Assembly (NCBI RefSeq): GCF_021134715.1
Contig: NC_060025.1
Span: forward strand, 9,114,001 to 9,178,000
From: Daphnia pulex
Lineage: Eukaryota > Arthropoda > Branchiopoda > Diplostraca > Daphniidae
Reading direction: 5' to 3'
DNA: 64,000 bases
The stretch's first letter is position 1, and each line of letters opens with the position of its first letter. Positions 3,382-15,780 of this stretch are shown one piece after another. The notes beneath the pieces are model-generated. The model was not told the origin of the DNA, did no database searches, and saw only the letters and a program-made list of their open reading frames with translations. Both the position numbers and the translations under genes were made by a program.

Positions 3382-5448
3382 TCACATGGTCGATATCCAA
3401 CGTTGGATTTGCTCCATGGCTTCAACAGCACTCACAATTCCTCCTGTCGAAGCAGGATCTTGCAGTGAAAGGATTTCGATCGACTCTGATAAAATGTCTC
3501 GAACGATTTCGATTTGTTTCTTGAAATGGGATAAAATTTTACATTGACTTTCTTCAAACGACCTTTGGGCCAGCAGCAACAACGGGGCGTACATTTCGTA
3601 CATCGTCACTCCTGCATGGACATTTGATTACGTAAAAGGTGAGTGAATCATTTTTGTATGTGTCAATTTAGTTTAGTTAGAAGAAAACAGACCACGTATT
3701 CGAGTGAGGCCGGGCTCGACGATATCGGCGACAGACAGTAATCGCCGGCAGATGTCAACTTTCCGTTCCAGCTGTTGTGACGTCATAGTGTTGAGTAGAA
3801 ATCGTTCGTTTCTCCCGTACAAAGTGCTCAGCGATTGCCTGGCTCTGGTCAACAGGAAATGATTGGGATGGAGTAGCGAGGCGTGTCGACTGAGGAAATC
3901 TTCCAATCTATTCCGTCATAATCAATCGAACAAAAATTTGAAAAACAACAACCTTTCTTTTTTTACAGCTGTTTTTCCCCCCCCATTTTTACTTTTCCAC
4001 TTGATCGGGTTCGATGGTTTCGAATTCTTCTTTGAGTTTGTCAATCACTTGTGTCACGACAGCTGCCGTTAAACTGTAAGGACATTGGGAGCATTTCCAG
4101 TCCGTTTCTGGCTCGTCCAGCGGTCGTTCAGGTAACACGACGCCATTCGAACAGTTTGGGCAACGGAGGGCCGATAAATAAGTCGAACATTCAGTCGGAT
4201 CCGAGCACCGGGAACAATCGCATTCGAATAATTTGCTGTGACGTAACACGGCCCTTCGCTCTTTAGTCCCTGCAACGAAAAGAAAATTTGTGTTGATTGC
4301 ATTACGTAATAATTACGTTGGGGTTTAATACCTTCCAGGGGTAAAGTGTAGCTGGTGAATATTTGTTCACCTTTCATGATTGGAACTGAGGCTCGAACGG
4401 TCATCTTGTAACTAGAAAAATTTGAATAATTAAGTTTAAGTCTTTAAAATTATGTTTGATTTTTACTTGGCATCGATGACGTGCTGGGTATTGGCTACGC
4501 AGTTGTGTGACATCATGGACGCCAGGGGGAACACACCCAACACTTGTTGATATTGATTCCCGGCAAGTCGAATTTCAAACGCGTTGACGTCTATGACGCC
4601 GCAGGAAGCGTGAATTTCCTCCTCGCTAAATTCATCCGCCAATCCGCAAATTTTGCGGAGAAATTGAACAACGTTCACTTGGTAAATTCTCCACATGTCC
4701 GACTGTCGTCGCAAGTCGTTGTGATTCTCCAACATTTTATATTCCTAATTTAAAAAATTAAAATTGTAAAAGTACAAAATGATTTTTTAAAAACTTAATT
4801 GTCGATACGTTGAATAATTTGGGCTGCGTAGTTTTCAGTAAAAGTCCTCTGAGCGGAGTAATACATTGATAGACCGGATGCATTTGATGGACATCATTGA
4901 TTACAATGCAGGATTTAGCTCGACTTAGAACTAAACATTCAGCTTTGTGTTCAGGGCTCTAATATAATCAAATTTAAAAAATCAAAATGCGCTAATGTAA
5001 ATCGATAGTTGAATACCTTTGCGCATTGCTCCTGGCAAAATGGGAAATTGCAATTGGGGCAGCGAAAGAGGCTGGCCTCTTGTACACGATCCAGACTGGC
5101 ATAGCACTTGAGACAACAGGGTATGCAGCCCTGTTTGGGTCCAGTGATAACAGCCGTTTCTCCAAAAATAATTTCTCCGGGCTTGAGGTTTTTACTCGCA
5201 AAGATGCAGCTGCGGCGCAATAAATCTCATCTTATTTATTTAACACGGGGAAATGGCTATTAAATAACTTACCGTCCGAATTTCTCGTCGTGAACAATCT
5301 TGTAGGGCTTGCAGAGACTCTTGTGGACTAGCCAATGTTCTTTTTGGTGATTTTTTGAGCAGTAGGAAATTTCACCGCATCCGCCGCAGATTTGCGAGGC
5401 TTCCGCACGACACACTGCGCAACTGCCGTTCGATTCCGTTCGATTCAT
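3382..5448 (-). CDS. SET and MYND domain protein, arthropod-specific SmydA/msta-like, copy 1 (532 aa)
   Basis: Putative SET-MYND protein. Relatives are lysine methyltransferase-like, but the arthropod-specific clade often has uncertain activity. Eight exons (complement): 5273-5448, 5017-5209, 4809-4958, 4467-4744, 4332-4411, 3993-4269, 3693-3907 and 3382-3611; lengths sum to 533 codons. Exon 1 encodes an N-terminal MYND finger (CAVC...CGGCGEISYC...HWLVHKSLC). Exon 2 has the start of SET (KNLKPGEIIF) and a second Cys-rich zinc segment (CCLKCYASL...CPNCNFPFC). Exon 4 carries SHNC at the family's NHSC-like cofactor site; exon 5 has GEQIFTSYTLPLEG; exon 6 has the post-SET CDCSRC and a zinc ribbon-like pair (LRCPNC / WKCSQCPY). 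Exons 7-8 form a helical tail. The intron 7 donor is a weak GT (gtctgt). Part of a three-gene tandem array with conserved intron phases. Confidence 0.88.
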
Positions 5449-6861: not shown

Positions 6862-8883
6862 TCACAAAGAATAGATCCAGCGCTGAATTTGCCCCAGGGA
6901 TTGAACAGCTGCCGTCCCCATGGCCCCTTCCGCCGAGGCGGGATCTTCCAGCGAAAGGATTTTCGCCGATTCCGACAGGATCACTCGAACGGCTTCGATT
7001 TTCTCTTGGCATTCCGCCGAACTGATTTGGCCGGCCTCAAACGCCCGTCTGGCCATTAGCAGCATTGGCGCGTGCATCTCGTATAGTGTCACACCTTAAA
7101 ATCAACAATCAAATTGCTGTTTAAGTGATGTGAAAAGATTGAATTCATTTACTTCACATACCTCTGATTCGTGTCAGACCGGGCTCGACGACATCCGCCA
7201 CATCCAGCAACTGCCGGCAGATGGCAACTTTACGTTCCAGCTGTTCCATCGTCAAAGTGTTGAGCAAATACTTTTCATCCCGTCCGTACAATTGACTCAG
7301 CGACTGCCGGGCGCTCGTGAACAGGAAGTGATTGGGATGGAGCAGCGAAGCGTGTCGACTTAGGAATCCTTCGTATCTATTTTGCATATAAATCCGACGC
7401 GATAAAGAGCGAAATTGTTTTGAATCAATTCGATAATGAAATACTTTTCCACTTGATTGGGTCCGATGGCTTGGAATTCTTGTTTGAGCCGGTCGACCAC
7501 TCGGTTCACGACGGAAGCCGTAAGGTTGTAAGGGCACCGGGAGCATTGCCACTCTGTTAATTCCGACTCGTCCAGCGGCCGGACGGGCAGGACGGAGCCT
7601 GTCGTGCACTTTGGACAGCAGAGGGCCGATAAATAAGTCGAATATTCCGTCGGATCTGAGCACCGGGAACAATCGCATTCGAATAATTTGCTCTGACGCA
7701 ACACGGCCCTTCGCTCTTTTGTTCCTGGGAAATGTTTTAAAATAGGTTTTTACAAGGTTTCGACACATTAAAGTGCTTCAATACCTTCTAACGGTAAAGT
7801 GTAACTGGCGAATATTTGCTGGCCTCTATCGATCGCAACTGTTGCTCTAACCGTCATCTGATATCTGCATGCGAATCATTTCCGGTTAATTAGACTTGAA
7901 ATCAATTTGGGGGTTAATGGAATTTTACTTGTCGTCGATAATATGGTGAGTATTGGACACGCAATGATGTGACAGCATCGAAGCTAATGGGAAAATGCCC
8001 AGCGCTCCTTGGCCGTCTGACAAACGGATTTCGTACGAGTTGACGTCGAGGACGCCACAGGCCGAGTGGATTTCCTCTTGGCTAAATTCATCCGCCAAAT
8101 GGCACGAATTCCGGAGAAATTCGACGACGTTGACTTGGTAAACGTCCCACATTTTCGACTGTCGTCGCAAGTCGTTGTGATGTTCCAATTCGCTGAATGC
8201 CTATTGCAAAATGATTTAGTTTAGCTTTACTAAGTCAAATTTGTTTTTCTGAAATACTTGGAATAATTTCGGTTGCGTCGTTTTAAGTAAAAGGCCCCGC
8301 AGAGGAAGAATGCATAGGTAAATCGGGTGGAATTCGTTCATGTCGTCAATGTGTTTTTGAGCTCGTCTTATTACGAGGCATTCGGCTTCGTGATTTGGAC
8401 TCTGATGTAATAATTATTGATTAAATGAAATGATTTGCTAAATTATCTCTCAACCTTTGCGCATTCTTCTTGGCAAAATGGGAAGTCACATCCGGGGCAC
8501 CGGAAGAGACTGGCCTCTTCCGCATCCTCCAGACTGGTGTAGCACGTAAGACAACACGGACGACAACCTTGTTTGGGTCCCGTGATTAAAGCCTTGTCCC
8601 GAAATATTATTTCGCCCGGTCTGATATTCTTGGACGCCACCATAAAACTTTTTTAATTAAATGGGTAATTTAAAAATTTATTTGAATTAGCACAAACTCA
8701 AAGTTAATTTAATTACCGTCCGAATTTCTGATCGCAAACAATCTTGTAGGGTTTGCATTGACTCTTGTGAGTGGCCCAATGTTGTTTCTGGTGATCCTTG
8801 GCGCAGTAAAAGACTTGAGCGCATCCGCCGCAAATTTGCGAGGCTTTTGAACGACACAATGCGCACAATTCCGTTTCGTTCAT
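6862..8883 (-). CDS. SET and MYND domain protein, arthropod-specific SmydA/msta-like, copy 2 (527 aa)
   Basis: Second member of the array. Exons (complement): 8717-8883, 8455-8647, 8258-8401, 7929-8200, 7785-7864, 7445-7724, 7162-7376 and 6862-7094; total 528 codons, with the same phases as copies 1 and 3. The N-terminal MYND finger reads CALC...CGGCAQVFYC...HWATHKSQC. The SET start is KNIRPGEIIF; the cofactor-site motif is SHHC (SHNC in the other two copies); GQQIFASYTLPLEG and the post-SET CDCSRC are kept. The start ATG at 8881-8883 gives MNETELCALC. Exon 7 and part of intron 7 are almost identical in DNA to copy 3 although other exons have diverged, which suggests gene conversion. A perfect heat-shock element lies about 160 bp upstream. 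Histone methylation activity is not established from sequence. Confidence 0.88.
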
Positions 8884-10087: not shown

Positions 10088-10093
10088 TTTATT
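10088..10093 (-). terminator. Poly(A) signal AATAAA of the chimeric gene
   Basis: AATAAA on the minus strand, about 140 bp past the chimeric ORF stop and 60 bp past the relict SET-MYND stop. It fits the end of a transcript covering both. Confidence 0.5.
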
Positions 10094-10151: not shown

Positions 10152-10251
10152 TTATGAATGTATCCAGTGCTGAATTCGCCCCATAGATTGTAAAACTGAT
10201 GTAACCATGGCCCCTTCCGTCGAGGCAGGATCTACTAGTGAAGGAATTTTT
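10152..10251 (-). pseudogene. Relict 3' end of a SET-MYND gene, out of frame with the overlapping ORF
   Basis: Read in its own minus-strand frame it encodes IPSLVDPASTEGAM, then about 19 residues ending GRIQHWIHS and a TAA at 10152-10154. This matches the C-termini of the SET-MYND copies (SLEDPASTEGAM... to IQRWI). It overlaps the last codons of the 793-aa ORF in another frame, and the ORF's TAG stop lies within it. An indel therefore appears to have moved this tail out of frame, after which the shifted TAG became the stop. Confidence 0.8.
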
Positions 10252-12616
10252 TCCGCTCAGCGAGATTCTTGGCAGCCAACTCTAGCATCAGTTGCTGCAT
10301 TTTTATTTGGTTCTGATGATTGTGTCCAGGGCCAAGATTGGCCCCGCACATTTCTCGCTTCCGGTCAACCCAATTTCCGGTTGCTTCGTCATATACCATC
10401 GTAAGTGGTGCGCCCTTGTTCCAATACTTGTCGGGCGGCGGCGGACAGTTGGTGGACGTGTCCACCCATACTCCGTTCTTTTCATCCCAGATGATCACCG
10501 GGTTAGTATCGTCCGGTAATTTCATTTTCTTCGCAGGGAGCCACTTTGATATAGTTTTCCACCAGTTGTCGTTGGCTAGCTTGGGCGAAGTATCAATTGT
10601 GGATGGAACCGGAAGCTGCTGATGGATCTCTTGATAGAATGACGCGGGTAGTAATTCCATCTTGCCATGTTGTGGCTGCTGCAACTTGACTCTCCGGTAA
10701 GGATTTTCCCTGGCACTAAAAAATGCTGGACTCTCCCAAGTACGTGGGGGACGGGAATTATTGGGTACCGGCGTCCTGGGCGCCAGTTCAATCACTTTTT
10801 TCTCACAAGGATGGGCTTTGGTAATCGGCAAATGACTGTTCTCCAAAAGCTGATTGTCATCCACCAGCATGGGTGGGACAGGCGATTCCGTCGAGGCAGG
10901 ATCTTCCAGTGAAGGAAATTTCGCAGATTCCGAAAGGATCGCTCGAACGGCTACGACTTTCTCATTATATTTCGCCGGACTTAATAAGCCGGCCAAGTGA
11001 TTCGCTTTAAGATCACTGATATTTTTCGCAGCCAAATCTTGCAAAAGTTTCTGTATATTCTTTTGGCTCTGATGTTGATGTCCGGGTGGTCCAGGATTGA
11101 CCCCATCCATTTCCTTCTTCCGGTCAACCCAATTTCCGGTTCCTTCATCAAATTCCATCGTAAGTGGTGAGCCCTTCCAATTATAAGAGTTGTCGGGCGG
11201 TGGTGGCGGCAAGTCCCTCGACGTGTCCTTCCAAACTCCGTTCTGTTCATCCCAAATAATAGTCGGGTTTAAGTCATCGGGTAATTTCATTTGTTTGGCT
11301 GGTAGAAACTTTTTCAACTTTGTCAACTTATTCCACCAGGTGTCATTATTGTCCAGCTTTGGTTTCTTATATTGGATTTGACTAGGAACAGGGACTTTTT
11401 GGCCCAATGGATTAATCCAATTGGATTCCGGCACAGGTGATTTGTCTTGATTAAGACTGTCTGGTAGTCCTGTCATTATTGGCTCCGCCATTTCGGTTGT
11501 CTGGTAAAAATTTTCGTATGGAACTGCGTATTCAGGTTCAATGACACTGTAATAATAAGGATCGGTTTCGATCATCGGTAATACTTCTTTCGGCGCAGCA
11601 ATGCGGTTGGGATACAAGATATGTAATAGGTCCTTTTCTCCCGGTGTGAGTGAACCGTCAGATTCCGGAACTGCTGCCGGAACATTTTCAAAAATCGGCA
11701 AATGATTGTCGGCAACTAAGAATGCTTCTCTCGGCACTCCGTTTGGGAACCAAATTTGAAGTTGTGTTATTTCCTCCGGTGTGAGCGAATCGTCGAATTC
11801 CGGAACTGCTGCCGGAACATTGTCAGGTATTTGGTTCAGGTTTGTTGGAACTGGTTGAACGCTGGACATGCGGGAAAAATCAGGGTACTTGGGTTTGGTA
11901 ATTTCGCCCTGCTGAAAATCGTGCTTGTCACATTCATTGCGTGTCATCATTCCAATGACACGATCGGTTTGGTAAGTTGGTATAGGACAGTCGGCAACCA
12001 ACAATGCTTCTCTCGGCACGACTCGATTTGGGAACCAAATTTCAAGTTGGGTCATTTCGGCCGGTGTGAGCGGTTCGTCTACTTCCGGAACTGCTTTAAC
12101 ATCTGGTATTATTTGGTTTACGCTGGAAAAGCGGGAAAAATCCGGGTACTTTGGTTTACTTATTTCGTTCGAATGTAGACGAATCTGGTAATCATGTTTA
12201 TTTTCCTTAGCGTTTATTCTCCGTTCCAGCAGGTCGATTTGTTTTAGCTTCCGGGAGCGATTCGAGCAACTTGAAACTTGTGGCACAGCCGGCACCGGTT
12301 GGGGTGATGTCGGGGCACATAGGAATCGGTTTTTAGATTGCTGGGACAAGGGTGGAATATGTCCAGCAGCAGCCGGGGTCTGGGACAATGGTTTAGTTTT
12401 TCCTGAATTAATCGTCTGGTAAGATGTCTGGAAATTACTTTCATAAATCGAATACTGTCGGGTATGATGGTTGGGGTTTAATTCCTCCATTTTGTTTTGC
12501 ATCGGTTGCATGGTGGGTTGCAACTTGTGCTTAGTATTACGGTCTGGTAAGGTGCCGTAAAACCACAAACTCTTTACTATAGTCCAAAGTCCGTTTCCCA
12601 TATTGCGGTTGAACAT
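10235..12616 (-). CDS. Intronless 793-aa chimeric repeat protein: Sec16-C-terminus-like modules plus captured SET-MYND tail
   Basis: One uninterrupted ORF of 793 codons lying between SET-MYND copies 2 and 3. Residues about 150-350 hold three diverged repeats sharing LTPxExxxLxIxFPNR and PREAxLVAD; two carry KPKYPDFSR just before. Residues about 426-535 and 684-790 are two copies of a module with a W-rich start, LPDDxNPxIIWDE, W(V/K)DTS, a proline run, TM.(F/Y)DE.TGNWVDRK and an H/Q-rich end. LPDD...WDE...WVD followed by prolines resembles the C-terminal conserved region of Sec16, the ER exit-site scaffold; this comes from memory of the family, not a search. Residues about 541-578 (AVRAILSESAKF...EDPASTES) are clearly homologous to the SET-MYND exon 8 product. 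There is no signal peptide or membrane segment. A TATA box lies 47 bp upstream of the ATG. It looks lineage-specific; function unknown. Lack of introns suggests a retrocopy or de novo assembly. Confidence 0.75.
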   Translation of the reverse strand: MFNRNMGNGLWTIVKSLWFYGTLPDRNTKHKLQPTMQPMQNKMEELNPNHHTRQYSIYESNFQTSYQTINSGKTKPLSQTPAAAGHIPPLSQQSKNRFLCAPTSPQPVPAVPQVSSCSNRSRKLKQIDLLERRINAKENKHDYQIRLHSNEISKPKYPDFSRFSSVNQIIPDVKAVPEVDEPLTPAEMTQLEIWFPNRVVPREALLVADCPIPTYQTDRVIGMMTRNECDKHDFQQGEITKPKYPDFSRMSSVQPVPTNLNQIPDNVPAAVPEFDDSLTPEEITQLQIWFPNGVPREAFLVADNHLPIFENVPAAVPESDGSLTPGEKDLLHILYPNRIAAPKEVLPMIETDPYYYSVIEPEYAVPYENFYQTTEMAEPIMTGLPDSLNQDKSPVPESNWINPLGQKVPVPSQIQYKKPKLDNNDTWWNKLTKLKKFLPAKQMKLPDDLNPTIIWDEQNGVWKDTSRDLPPPPPDNSYNWKGSPLTMEFDEGTGNWVDRKKEMDGVNPGPPGHQHQSQKNIQKLLQDLAAKNISDLKANHLAGLLSPAKYNEKVVAVRAILSESAKFPSLEDPASTESPVPPMLVDDNQLLENSHLPITKAHPCEKKVIELAPRTPVPNNSRPPRTWESPAFFSARENPYRRVKLQQPQHGKMELLPASFYQEIHQQLPVPSTIDTSPKLANDNWWKTISKWLPAKKMKLPDDTNPVIIWDEKNGVWVDTSTNCPPPPDKYWNKGAPLTMVYDEATGNWVDRKREMCGANLGPGHNHQNQIKMQQLMLELAAKNLAERKKFLH
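10247..10567 (-). repeat. Sec16-like module, second copy in the chimeric ORF
   Basis: Encodes residues about 684-790. It begins with NWWKTISKWLPAKKMKLPDD and contains IIWDEKNGVWVDTS, PPPP, TMVYDEATGNWVDRKREM and an H/Q-rich helix. It is directly followed by the frameshifted SET-MYND tail. Confidence 0.75.
10883..10996 (-). other. In-frame captured SET-MYND exon 8 fragment
   Basis: Encodes residues about 541-578 of the chimeric protein. AG..SPAKYNEKVVAVRAIL followed by SLEDPASTES aligns with AGQISSAECQEKIEAVRVIL and SLEDPAS.EG of SET-MYND copy 2. DNA similarity is also visible (CGCCGGACTTAATAAGCCGG versus CGCCGAACTGATTTGGCCGG), so the homology is real rather than low-complexity. Confidence 0.82.
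11012..11341 (-). repeat. Sec16-like module, first copy in the chimeric ORF
   Basis: Encodes residues about 426-535: TWWNKLTKLKKFLPAKQMKL, PDDLNPTIIWDEQNGVWKD, a run of five prolines, TMEFDEGTGNWVDRKKEM and the H/Q-rich end. It is followed by the in-frame SET-MYND fragment. Module plus SET-MYND tail is therefore the unit that was duplicated. Confidence 0.75.
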
Positions 12617-12662
12617 TTTGACTTTGAGAAAACTGCGATTACTCTAAGGGGAATCGGTGTCC

Positions 12663-12670
12663 CTTATATA
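12663..12670 (-). promoter_or_regulatory. TATA box of the chimeric gene
   Basis: TATATAAG on the minus strand, 47 bp upstream of the ATG at 12614-12616. This implies a very short 5' UTR and a focused promoter. Confidence 0.6.
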
Positions 12671-12830
12671 ACCTTTGGCTTCGATTCGCCATTCGCAGCA
12701 GCCGTTTGGCTCAGTTATTCGATAATATTTTAAAAGCGTCAAAGTTTATGTCATTCAATTATAGCTCATTCGAAACAGAATTTTATTACGCATATATTTC
12801 AAAAAAGAAATTTAATTTTTAATTAATTCT

Positions 12831-13148
12831 GATCGAATTAAATTCAAAATTCAAAATTCCATAGGTGCTGCCATCTACTATTGCGTAATATGCATACTAC
12901 GCAGTATCCATGTAAATACATTGTCCTATGTTCCTATTACGCAATATTGCGTAATCAGAACATTGGGTCTAATTTAAGTTGAATAATTCGCGTAATTTTA
13001 ATTGAATTCGAATTAAAGATAATTTGCTGGAAAAGCAGTAAATGTACTGCGTAATTAAAATAAACGCCCGTCTCATATGAATATTTATCATCATACTAAG
13101 TCAAAAACAGCTTGGGAAATGACGTAAGAGGTTATAAAGGAACTGTGT
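12831..13148. repeat. Tandem ~320-bp repeat, unit A (upstream of the chimeric gene)
   Basis: Starts GATCGAATTA. It shares with unit B, in order: TTCCATAG, GCTGCCATCT, a 22-bp near-palindrome, TAATTTAAGTTGAATAAT, GTACTGCGTAATTAAAAT, GCTTGGGAAATGACGTAAGA (one base fewer in B) and a GGAACTGTG-like end. Copies of TGCGTAAT/ATTACGCA occur throughout, including a perfect 20-bp palindrome at 12936-12955. Confidence 0.8.
12936..12955. repeat. Perfect 20-bp palindrome of two facing ATTACGCAAT/ATTGCGTAAT sites
   Basis: ATTACGCAATATTGCGTAAT equals its own reverse complement. Each half resembles a C/EBP-PAR-bZIP type binding site, so a bZIP dimer cluster is possible. That reading is inference from motif shape. 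Confidence 0.6.
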
Positions 13149-13164
13149 TTTATTATTTAACTGT

Positions 13165-13486
13165 GATCGAATTATATTCGAAATAAAAAATTCCATAGAG
13201 CTGCCATCTGCTATTGCGTAATATGCATACTACGCAGTATCCATGTATTGCGTAATAAAAAACATTCCGTTGATCAATTCAATTCAATAATCTTAGTGGG
13301 CTTAATTTAAGTTGAATAATATGCGTAATTTTAATTAAAGATGATTTCCAATTAAAGATAATTTGTAAAAGCAGAAAATGTACTGCGTAATTAAAATTAA
13401 CGCTCGTCTTATGTGAACATTTGTCATCATCATATTCATCCCCAGAAACTGCTTGGGAATGACGTAAGAGGGCGTAAAGGAGCTGT
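13165..13486. repeat. Tandem ~320-bp repeat, unit B
   Basis: Second copy of the block, with the 22-bp near-palindrome TGCGTAATATGCATACTACG(CA) at 13215-13236 identical to that at 12882-12903. It has small indels and lacks the 20-bp perfect palindrome. It lies between the chimeric gene promoter and the 3' end of SET-MYND copy 3. Confidence 0.8.
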
Positions 13487-13665: not shown

Positions 13666-15780
13666 TCACATGGACGAGATCCATCGCTGGATTTGATCCA
13701 GGGCTTGAACGGCCGCACTACCCATGGCCCCTTCCGTCGAGGCAGGATCTTCTAGCGACAAGATTCTAGTGGCTTCCGACAATATCGACCGGACAGATTC
13801 AATCTTCTCTTTGAATTCCGCCGAACTGATTTGGCCGGCCTCGAACGTTCGTCTAGCCATCAGCAACATTGGCGCGTGCATCTCGTATAGTGTCACACCT
13901 TTATTCAACAATCAAATTGCTGTTTAAGTGATGTGAAAAGATTGAATTCATTTGGTTTCTATGCATACCTCTGATTCGTGTCAGGCCGGGCTCGACGACA
14001 TCCGCCACATCCAGCAACTGCCGGCAGATGGCAACTTTACGTTCCAGCTGTTCCATCGTCAAAGTGTTGAGCAAATACTTTTCATCCCGTCCGTACAATT
14101 GGCTCAGCGACTGCCGGGCGCTCGTGAACAGGAAGTGATTGGGATGGACAAGTGAGGCGTGTCGACTTAGGAATCCTTCGAACCTTCCGGCCCAAAAAAA
14201 AAGGTTTGATTGCAACTTTTATAATCAGATTTTTTAAAAATCTCAAAATACTTTTCGACTTCGTTGGGTCCGATAGTTTCGAATTCTTCTTTGAGTTTGT
14301 CGACCACTCGGTTGACAACGACGGCCGTCAATTTGTACGAGCACAAATTGCATTTCCATTCCGTTTCTTTCTCATCCAGCGGGCGGATGGGCAGCACGAA
14401 GCCCGTGGGGCATTTCTGGCAGCGCAGGGCCGATAAATAAGTTGAGCATTCCGTCGGATCGGAGCAGCGGGAACAATCACATTCGAATAATTTACTCTGA
14501 CGCAACAGAGATCGACGTTCTCTCGTTCCTGTAATTTTAAATGTAGCGTCATTTTCAGTTTAATATATTCATTTAATTGGATTAAATATTGCCTTCGAGC
14601 GCCAGAGCATAACTGGAAAAGACTTGCTCTCCTCTCATAATTGGAACTGAAGCTCGAACTGTCATCTGGTAACTAAATAAGAAATTTGATTAGGTTTTAT
14701 TATTTCGGTATCAAAATTTTGAATTGATTTCTACTTGGCATCGATGACGTGGTTCATATTAGACACGCAGTTGTGAGACATCATCGAGGCCAGAGGGAAC
14801 AGACCGAGGATGCGTTGCTGGCCACTGTTGGGAGGTCTGATTTCATAGGCATTGACGTCCAGGGCCCCGCAAGCCGAGTGGATTTCTTCCTGGGTAAATT
14901 GATCGGATAATTCGCAAACCTTGTGGAGAAATTCGACGACGTTGATTTGGTAGACGCTCCAATAGTCCGACTTTCTCCTCAAGTCGTTGTGGTTCTCCAA
15001 TCCGTTGAATTGCTGTTTATTATATTACAAAACGGACTGTGTGTAATTAATTATTTTAATTAATTTGCAGTTTTTGGTTTTATACTTCGAATAATTTGGG
15101 CTGGGTCGTCTTCAATAAAAGTCCTCTGAGTGGCGAAATACATTGGTAGACCGGATGCGATTTGCTCATGTCGGTTATTGTGATGCGCGATTTGGTCCGG
15201 CTCAAAACTTTGCATTCCGTTTCGCCATGTTCGGGACTCTATTATTACGTATTTTGACGGACGGACCGTTTTTAGAAAGTCAAAGTTATTGTTATTTGTT
15301 TGGTTATATGATTTTACCTTGGCACATTTCTCTTGACAAAACGGGAAATTACATCCAGGGCACCGGAAGAGACTGGCCTCTTCAACATTCTCCAAACTGG
15401 TGTAGCACGCCAAACAGCACGGCAGACAACCTTGTTTGGGTCCCGTGAAAATGGCCTTTTCCCGAAATATGATTTCACCCGGTTTGATATTCTTGGACGC
15501 CACCATGATCCTAAAAAGATATAATCCGTTTATAGTCACGATGTGTTTTTATTTTAAATGAATTCTAATAGATGTAGTATTTATACCTGCCATATTTCTG
15601 GTCGAAAACAATCTTGTAAGGTTTGCACTGGCTCTTGTGAGTGGCCCAATGTTGTTTCTGGTGTTCCTTTGAGCAGTAAGAAATTTCACCGCATCCTCCG
15701 CAGATTTGCGAGGCTTTTGAACGACACAATGCGCACACTTTGCTGCTGGTGCCGTTGGCCGTTGGTCGATTCATCATCAC
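13666..15780 (-). CDS. SET and MYND domain protein, arthropod-specific SmydA/msta-like, copy 3 (540 aa)
   Basis: Third array member. Exons (complement): 15587-15780, 15318-15510, 15086-15238, 14735-15012, 14593-14672, 14252-14528, 13969-14183 and 13666-13898; 541 codons with the same phases as its paralogues. The MYND finger is CALC...CGGCGEISYC...HWATHKSQC. SET pieces are KNIKPGEIIF, SHNC and GEQVFSSYALALEG; the post-SET motif is CDCSRC. The exon 5 donor is GC (AAG|gcaata) where copies 1 and 2 have GT, so the intron 14529-14592 would be GC-AG. The start may be ATG 15778-15780 or the ATG two codons later. Exon 7 is nearly identical to copy 2. Its promoter faces the long spacer before bazooka. 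Confidence 0.87.

Follow-up and report, generated by a model that had tools for sequence, protein, structure and literature searches.

The window, the whole 64,000-nucleotide stretch of Daphnia pulex DNA that was analysed, contains an array of SMYD (SET-MYND) genes with a long reading frame between two of them. This minus-strand ORF (12616-10235) starts with an ATG, is intronless and runs uninterrupted through 793 codons to encode a protein of 793 aa. It is flanked by SMYD copies C and B, with copy A beyond, all on the same strand. The features discussed below are as follows.

3382..5430, minus strand: SMYD copy A
6862..8870, minus strand: SMYD copy B, the closest to tail 1 among the SMYD copies found
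10088..10093, minus strand: poly(A) signal AATAAA, 3' of the stop codon and kept in the paralogue
10156..10255, minus strand: tail 2, derived from SMYD exon 8, out of frame and mostly past the stop codon
10235..12616, minus strand: the 793-aa intronless ORF, a member of a dispersed family
10268..10564, minus strand: module 2, residues 685-783 (Sec16 profile match at residues 684-723)
10886..10994, minus strand: tail 1, derived from SMYD exon 8, in frame
11024..11338, minus strand: module 1, residues 427-531 (Sec16 profile match at residues 426-468)
12622..13141, minus strand: upstream region with a TATA box (12664-12670), homologous wholly or partly to upstream regions of family genes on C8 and C9
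12816..13487, plus strand: two tandem copies, ~333 nt each, of a distal upstream element
13666..15740, minus strand: SMYD copy C

Both modules contain LPDDxNPxIIWDE and GNWVDRK. At the DNA level, 75% of 295 aligned positions are identical in the two (E 1.6e-50), and SMYD exon 8 sequence lies 3' of each. The ORF thus joins two parental sequences, Sec16-like and SMYD, in one open frame. The preliminary description of this DNA had reported a chimeric intronless ORF with two signature modules inside a SET-MYND array; the ORF and both signatures were observed, and its module and tail coordinates were correct to within a few bases.

Pfam searches with the ORF and five related proteins (P0001-P0005, see below) gave only matches under the Pfam cut-offs, e.g. 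DUF1902, and a PDB sequence search with the ORF gave no match at E<=1. The viral contigs searched yielded one pattern match and no relative. A candidate N-terminal amphipathic helix was dropped as too weak: its moment was reached by 88, 70 and 99 of 2000 shuffles for the window ORF, P0003 and L057, respectively, and by 673-1597 of 2000 in the other three of the six sequences.

Sec16 likeness of the two modules

The Daphnia Sec16 gene is located on C1, where its C-terminal exons encode FKPKTQMKLPDDKNPT and IVWDAKKGQWVDTGKD, separated by an intron. A protein search with the Sec16 C-terminus returned 15 proteins at E<=1, all with a Sec16 domain, from Daphnia (D. carinata, D. sinensis), insects, spiders and a mollusc, among others. 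A profile of the motif was built from 11 of the 15, leaving out P0007 and P0008 (Daphnia, on purpose), P0011 (a near-duplicate) and P0021 (motif not seen). This non-Daphnia profile matches both modules (E 7.6e-15 for the ORF among 1341 targets), with domain scores of 29.4 and 23.3 bits against 11.1 bits for the best of 5000 shuffles, as the preliminary description, which had called both modules Sec16-like and proposed a profile check, anticipated. In a genome search with a Daphnia Sec16 segment (a 64-letter query whose first 7 letters are not true to the Sec16 sequence), five places reached E<=10 among the best candidates scored, namely the two Sec16 exons, both modules (E 6.9e-8 and 2.6e-7) and the paralogue (E 4.8e-7). 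Therefore, the likeness is not due to chance, and the comparisons show the modules to be homologous to the conserved C-terminal motif of Sec16. The homology spans the position of the Sec16 intron, between NPT and IVWD, and the intron is absent from the modules.

The match covers only ~43 residues. No further Sec16 match in the ORF was seen in the Pfam search or in the genome search with the Daphnia Sec16 segment, and TPR_Sec16 (PF12931), the central conserved domain, was not listed for the ORF by Pfam at E<=1. The second halves of the modules (ending DExTGNWVDRK) score only -1.0 and 2.3 bits against the Sec16 profile, and to derive them from that motif as well is a guess. When the module by itself served as a protein query, one protein, P0006, was returned.

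SMYD copies and the captured tails

The exons of SMYD copy C, joined by eye for the domain and structure searches, matched zf-MYND (E 4.7e-9) and SET (E 1.4e-7) and, among structures, SMYD2 (E 1.9e-13) as well as SMYD1 and SMYD3. Single SMYD exons gave no SET or MYND match, and a smaller exon join was weak. Neither domain was found in the ORF by the Pfam search.

Tail 1 matches SMYD copy B (6928-7036) with 81% identity over 109 nt (E 7.9e-23). Tail 2 matches copy B (6869-6968) at 78%, or at 79% for the segment 10156-10250 (E 7e-17), and overlaps the ORF codons only at 10238-10255, in another frame. Relative to P0003 it is without its 5' part, and tail 2 of the paralogue is in the same state. 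The preliminary description, which had each module followed by exon 8 sequence, once in frame and once out of frame, agrees with these matches. It had further called the event exon-scale: the captured piece does come from SMYD exon 8, but the homology begins ~58 nt inside that exon (its start was placed by eye at 7094) rather than at the splice site, and runs to the exon 8 stop codon. No SMYD 3' UTR match was seen at the tails, but neither do copies A, B and C match one another in their 3' UTRs.

The donor was probably a lost B-like SMYD copy, because tail 1 is 81% identical to copy B and 70% to copy C; tail 2 is C-like over a stretch of 40 nt (92.5%). A tree built on 37 residues places the SMYDs in one group (support 0.97) and the tail 1 sequences together, and joins the single tail of P0004 weakly (0.61) to the tail 2 sequences, which leaves the number of captures undecided by the tree. 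The junction is the same for every tail, as is the module end before it, and from this we infer one capture and a subsequent duplication of module plus tail. The capture of exon 8 and the duplication had been proposed beforehand and are supported.

Two other observations concern the SMYD copies themselves. Copies B (7102-7378) and C (13905-14185) are 100% identical in a 49-nt part of the last intron and 96% identical in the 222 nt that follow, compared with 74-87% in their other matched blocks, possibly owing to recent gene conversion. A partial copy of SMYD C (92% identity; G000:C9:4301408-4302812, L018 3408-4812) lies 4.8 Mb away and carries the edge of the ORF's upstream repeat.

A dispersed family with a shared promoter

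The ORF has 11 matches in its own genome at E<=0.01, itself included, among them the inverted paralogue, both copies of the C8 pseudogene, the 342-codon ORF at C8:8.480 Mb and three SMYD exon 8 copies; the other loci below are additional to these. The relatives at other loci have in common with it the N-terminal coil region, the module or the promoter.

C9:9103295-9104857: inverted paralogue, 520 aa, with one module and tail 2 as in the ORF
C9:9.075 Mb: weak family candidate (E 0.009, 13.7 bits)
C9:8.082 Mb: 217-codon frame, the start of which matches P0005 at E 1.7e-8
C8:8.480 Mb: 342-codon ORF with the N-terminal region
C8:7.529 Mb: 99-codon frame (plus strand) and a broken relative (minus strand)
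C8:7.699 and 7.716 Mb: module-only pseudogene in two copies, with a stop and an insertion, no tail seen
C7:2.165 and 1.234 Mb: distant subfamily

The long family ORFs are uninterrupted, and the broken relatives on C8 carry stops. L047, of the C7 subfamily, scores 19.7 bits with the coil profile (best of 2000 shuffles, 8.8); its Sec16-like stretch is a borderline case, since the whole protein scores 8.2 bits and one of 2000 shuffles exceeded this. L017 scores -1.8 bits for the motif. The Sec16-like motif of members outside the array thus appears degenerate or unproven. Upstream of the inverted paralogue lies a SMYD exon fragment (L012 4593-4761) that is 85% identical to copy C, versus 81% to B and 80% to A; part of the SMYD copy C gene seems to have been carried along in the inversion copy.

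The protein database holds five long relatives of residues 390-793. P0005 is tailless and has a single module; P0004 likewise has one module, followed by one in-frame tail; in P0003 and P0002 there are two tails, both in frame, and in P0001 tail 1 only. The same search, which was limited to similar lengths and close relatives, found no D. carinata or D. sinensis relatives of these residues, although proteins of both species are in the database, and within these limits no orthologue of the whole protein in distant arthropods, as expected from the preliminary description. A literature search for DAPPUDRAFT_313458 and 343686 returned no paper, and the gene was not found in the sections covered of PMC5459927, from the literature on Daphnia with SMYD, or in those of PMC6096569, PMC4980449 and PMC13389597.

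Homology also extends upstream of the coding region, over ~200-520 bp including the TATA box, and links this DNA to the regions upstream of the genes at C9:9.103, C9:8.082, C8:7.529 and C8:8.480 Mb. Compared pairwise with 4.5-9 kb loci, the promoter gave E values of 6e-52 (C8:7.529), 4e-33 (C8:8.480) and 2e-54 (C9:8.082). Genome-wide, C8:7.529 was matched at 9e-17 and, in a separate search, C9:8.082 at 4e-29 and C8:8.480 at 7e-9; C8:7.529 was absent from the results of the 196-bp query behind the latter two. The family copies have largely kept the blocks AAACGGCTGxTGCGA and TATATAAGG. The DNA in which the matches fall is AT-rich. For the C7 members, the DNA upstream of the genes gave no clear match to the ORF promoter, and no SMYD match was seen in the ORF upstream region. 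The preliminary description had credited the ORF with its own TATA box and poly(A) signal; both are present (TATATA, ~54 nt 5' of the ATG, is kept in the paralogue), but the TATA box is, judging by this homology, that of the family's promoter.

Two further features of the upstream DNA were noted. Nine of the 12 TTACGCA sites in the window fall within a 605-bp upstream stretch (12786-13390), and the window total is itself unremarkable (reached by 8 of 100 shuffles); the group is possibly a cluster of regulatory sites, owing in part to the tandem repeat. At C8:7.529 Mb (L046 2087-2859) two family promoters stand head to head, with the short open frame in one direction and the broken relative in the other.

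The shared upstream DNA indicates that the copies carried their promoters and therefore argues for duplication at the DNA level. Spread by retroposition, each intronless copy using a transcript begun upstream, would accommodate the uninterrupted long ORFs and the absence of the Sec16 intron from the module. However, the homology reaches ~520 bp upstream, through and past the TATA box, which an ordinary mRNA copy would not carry, and this explanation is considered unlikely. The gene is intronless, as a retrogene would be, but the upstream DNA carried along among the copies does not fit one.

A second explanation, close to that of the preliminary description, is that a Sec16 fragment (a retrocopy or a DNA piece) landed on or beside a SMYD copy and that the new gene grew there. 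The module is indeed homologous to Sec16 and lacks the intron, but a tailless relative exists, and N-terminal relatives and homologous promoters occur outside the array; with N-terminal region, promoter and module each found outside the array or in a tailless relative, a local origin of this kind is very improbable. Since the ORF is one of a family, and since the homology of its upstream region to the promoters of relatives elsewhere takes in the TATA box, what came into the array was probably a whole family gene, promoter included, duplicated at the DNA level; the SMYD tail would have been added later. The term young gene, used before, accordingly suits the tail and its duplication and not the family.

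The existence of a tailless relative (P0005) and of single-module forms (P0004 and the paralogue) suggests an order of steps, and we infer that the family gene came first, followed by tail capture and then by the duplication of module and tail together. To begin with, a family gene that had a single Sec16-like module would have been duplicated, along with its promoter, into the SMYD array on C9. Its 3' end would then have been joined to the last exon of a B-like SMYD copy, the other exons being gone, to give an in-frame SMYD tail. Module plus tail would next have been duplicated inside the ORF, and the end tail would have lost its 5' part and its frame in the lineage of the ORF and paralogue. 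Finally, the inverted copy would have arisen ~20 kb away.

Selection, possible role and known systems

Comparison of the ORF with the paralogue gave dN/dS of 0.40 for the N-terminal part (one-sided p 0.038) and 0.19 for the C-terminal module (p 0.0018); for module 1 versus module 2 it was 0.33 (one-sided p 0.0005). A value of 0.49 for all aligned positions was set aside, as it includes non-homologous middle parts. Coding differences between the two genes number 25 of 824 (3.0%) and 13 of 321 (4.0%), versus 64 of 499 (12.8%) in the 5' flank and 38 of 501 (7.6%) in the 3' flank (Fisher p 1.7e-11 when the N-terminal part is set against the 5' flank, and 2.9e-4 when the whole coding sequence is set against the 3' flank). 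All three coding gaps are multiples of 3, compared with 4 of 11 in the flanks. Tail 1 versus SMYD copy B is indistinguishable from neutral (dN/dS 0.55, p 0.27) and gives no clear sign of constraint.

The coding DNA is more conserved than its flanks and dN/dS is 0.19-0.40; for these reasons the ORF is probably functional, and the signs of coding support its earlier designation as a gene. Gene conversion between ORF and paralogue could also cause low coding divergence. The copy-number flux, the broken C8 relatives and the lost tail 2 would fit a decaying, non-functional ORF that is open only through its recent origin. Such decay seems unlikely: three comparisons gave dN/dS below 1, the coding gaps keep the frame, coding DNA has diverged less than flanking DNA, and the database has five long related proteins. 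The reading preferred here, with a probability of roughly 0.72 for the explanation as a whole, is that the ORF codes for a protein and belongs to a family of intronless genes scattered through this Daphnia genome.

The counterpart of the ORF motif presumably falls within the C-terminal binding region of human Sec16. According to PMC4980449, the C-terminal region binds Sec12 and Sec23 and, when overexpressed alone, disrupts ER-to-Golgi transport. A role of the ORF product at ER exit sites would follow from the motif only; by analogy, a small protein that has the motif twice could be a competitor or an aid of Sec16. In a tentative mechanism, less likely than not as a whole, the protein would be Pro-rich and probably unstructured, its two Sec16-like motifs would bind one of the partners of that C-terminal region (in humans, Sec23 or Sec12), and it would tune ER export or compete with Sec16. 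Chains could be paired through the coil, and the SMYD piece would probably be a passive spacer. It is also conceivable, if unlikely, that the members make up an undescribed, dispersing intronless family that moves with its own promoter, bears Sec16-like COPII-binding motifs, supplies soluble competitors or helpers of Sec16 and acquires new ends near its landing sites. If this were true, a promoter-carrying family would be a running source of chimeric genes. The stages of chimera formation, from a tailless gene through a single tail and a duplicated unit of module and tail to the loss of a tail, each seem preserved in a living relative, and the findings point to a Daphnia family, so far uncharacterised, whose products could disturb or extend what Sec16 does at ER exit sites.

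Among the closest known proteins is the D. pulex hypothetical protein DAPPUDRAFT_313458 (P0003; 928 aa) of the same family, which has two SMYD tails in frame; it differs in being only 64% identical over 78% of residues 390-793 and in having two modules that are each incomplete. With the C-terminal region of Sec16 (SEC16A) the ORF shares the W...MxLPDDxNPxIxWDxxxxxW motif, but it has the motif twice and lacks both a TPR_Sec16 domain and the intron found at this site in Sec16. With SMYD methyltransferases, including arthropod SmydA (PMC5459927), it shares ~109 and 100 nt of the last exon and neither the SET nor the MYND domain. The young Daphnia chimeric genes described in PMC13389597 are, like the ORF, recent chimeras, those being in D. 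pulex and D. pulicaria only; they have parts acquired by horizontal transfer, whereas the two recognised outside parts of the ORF come from the same genome.
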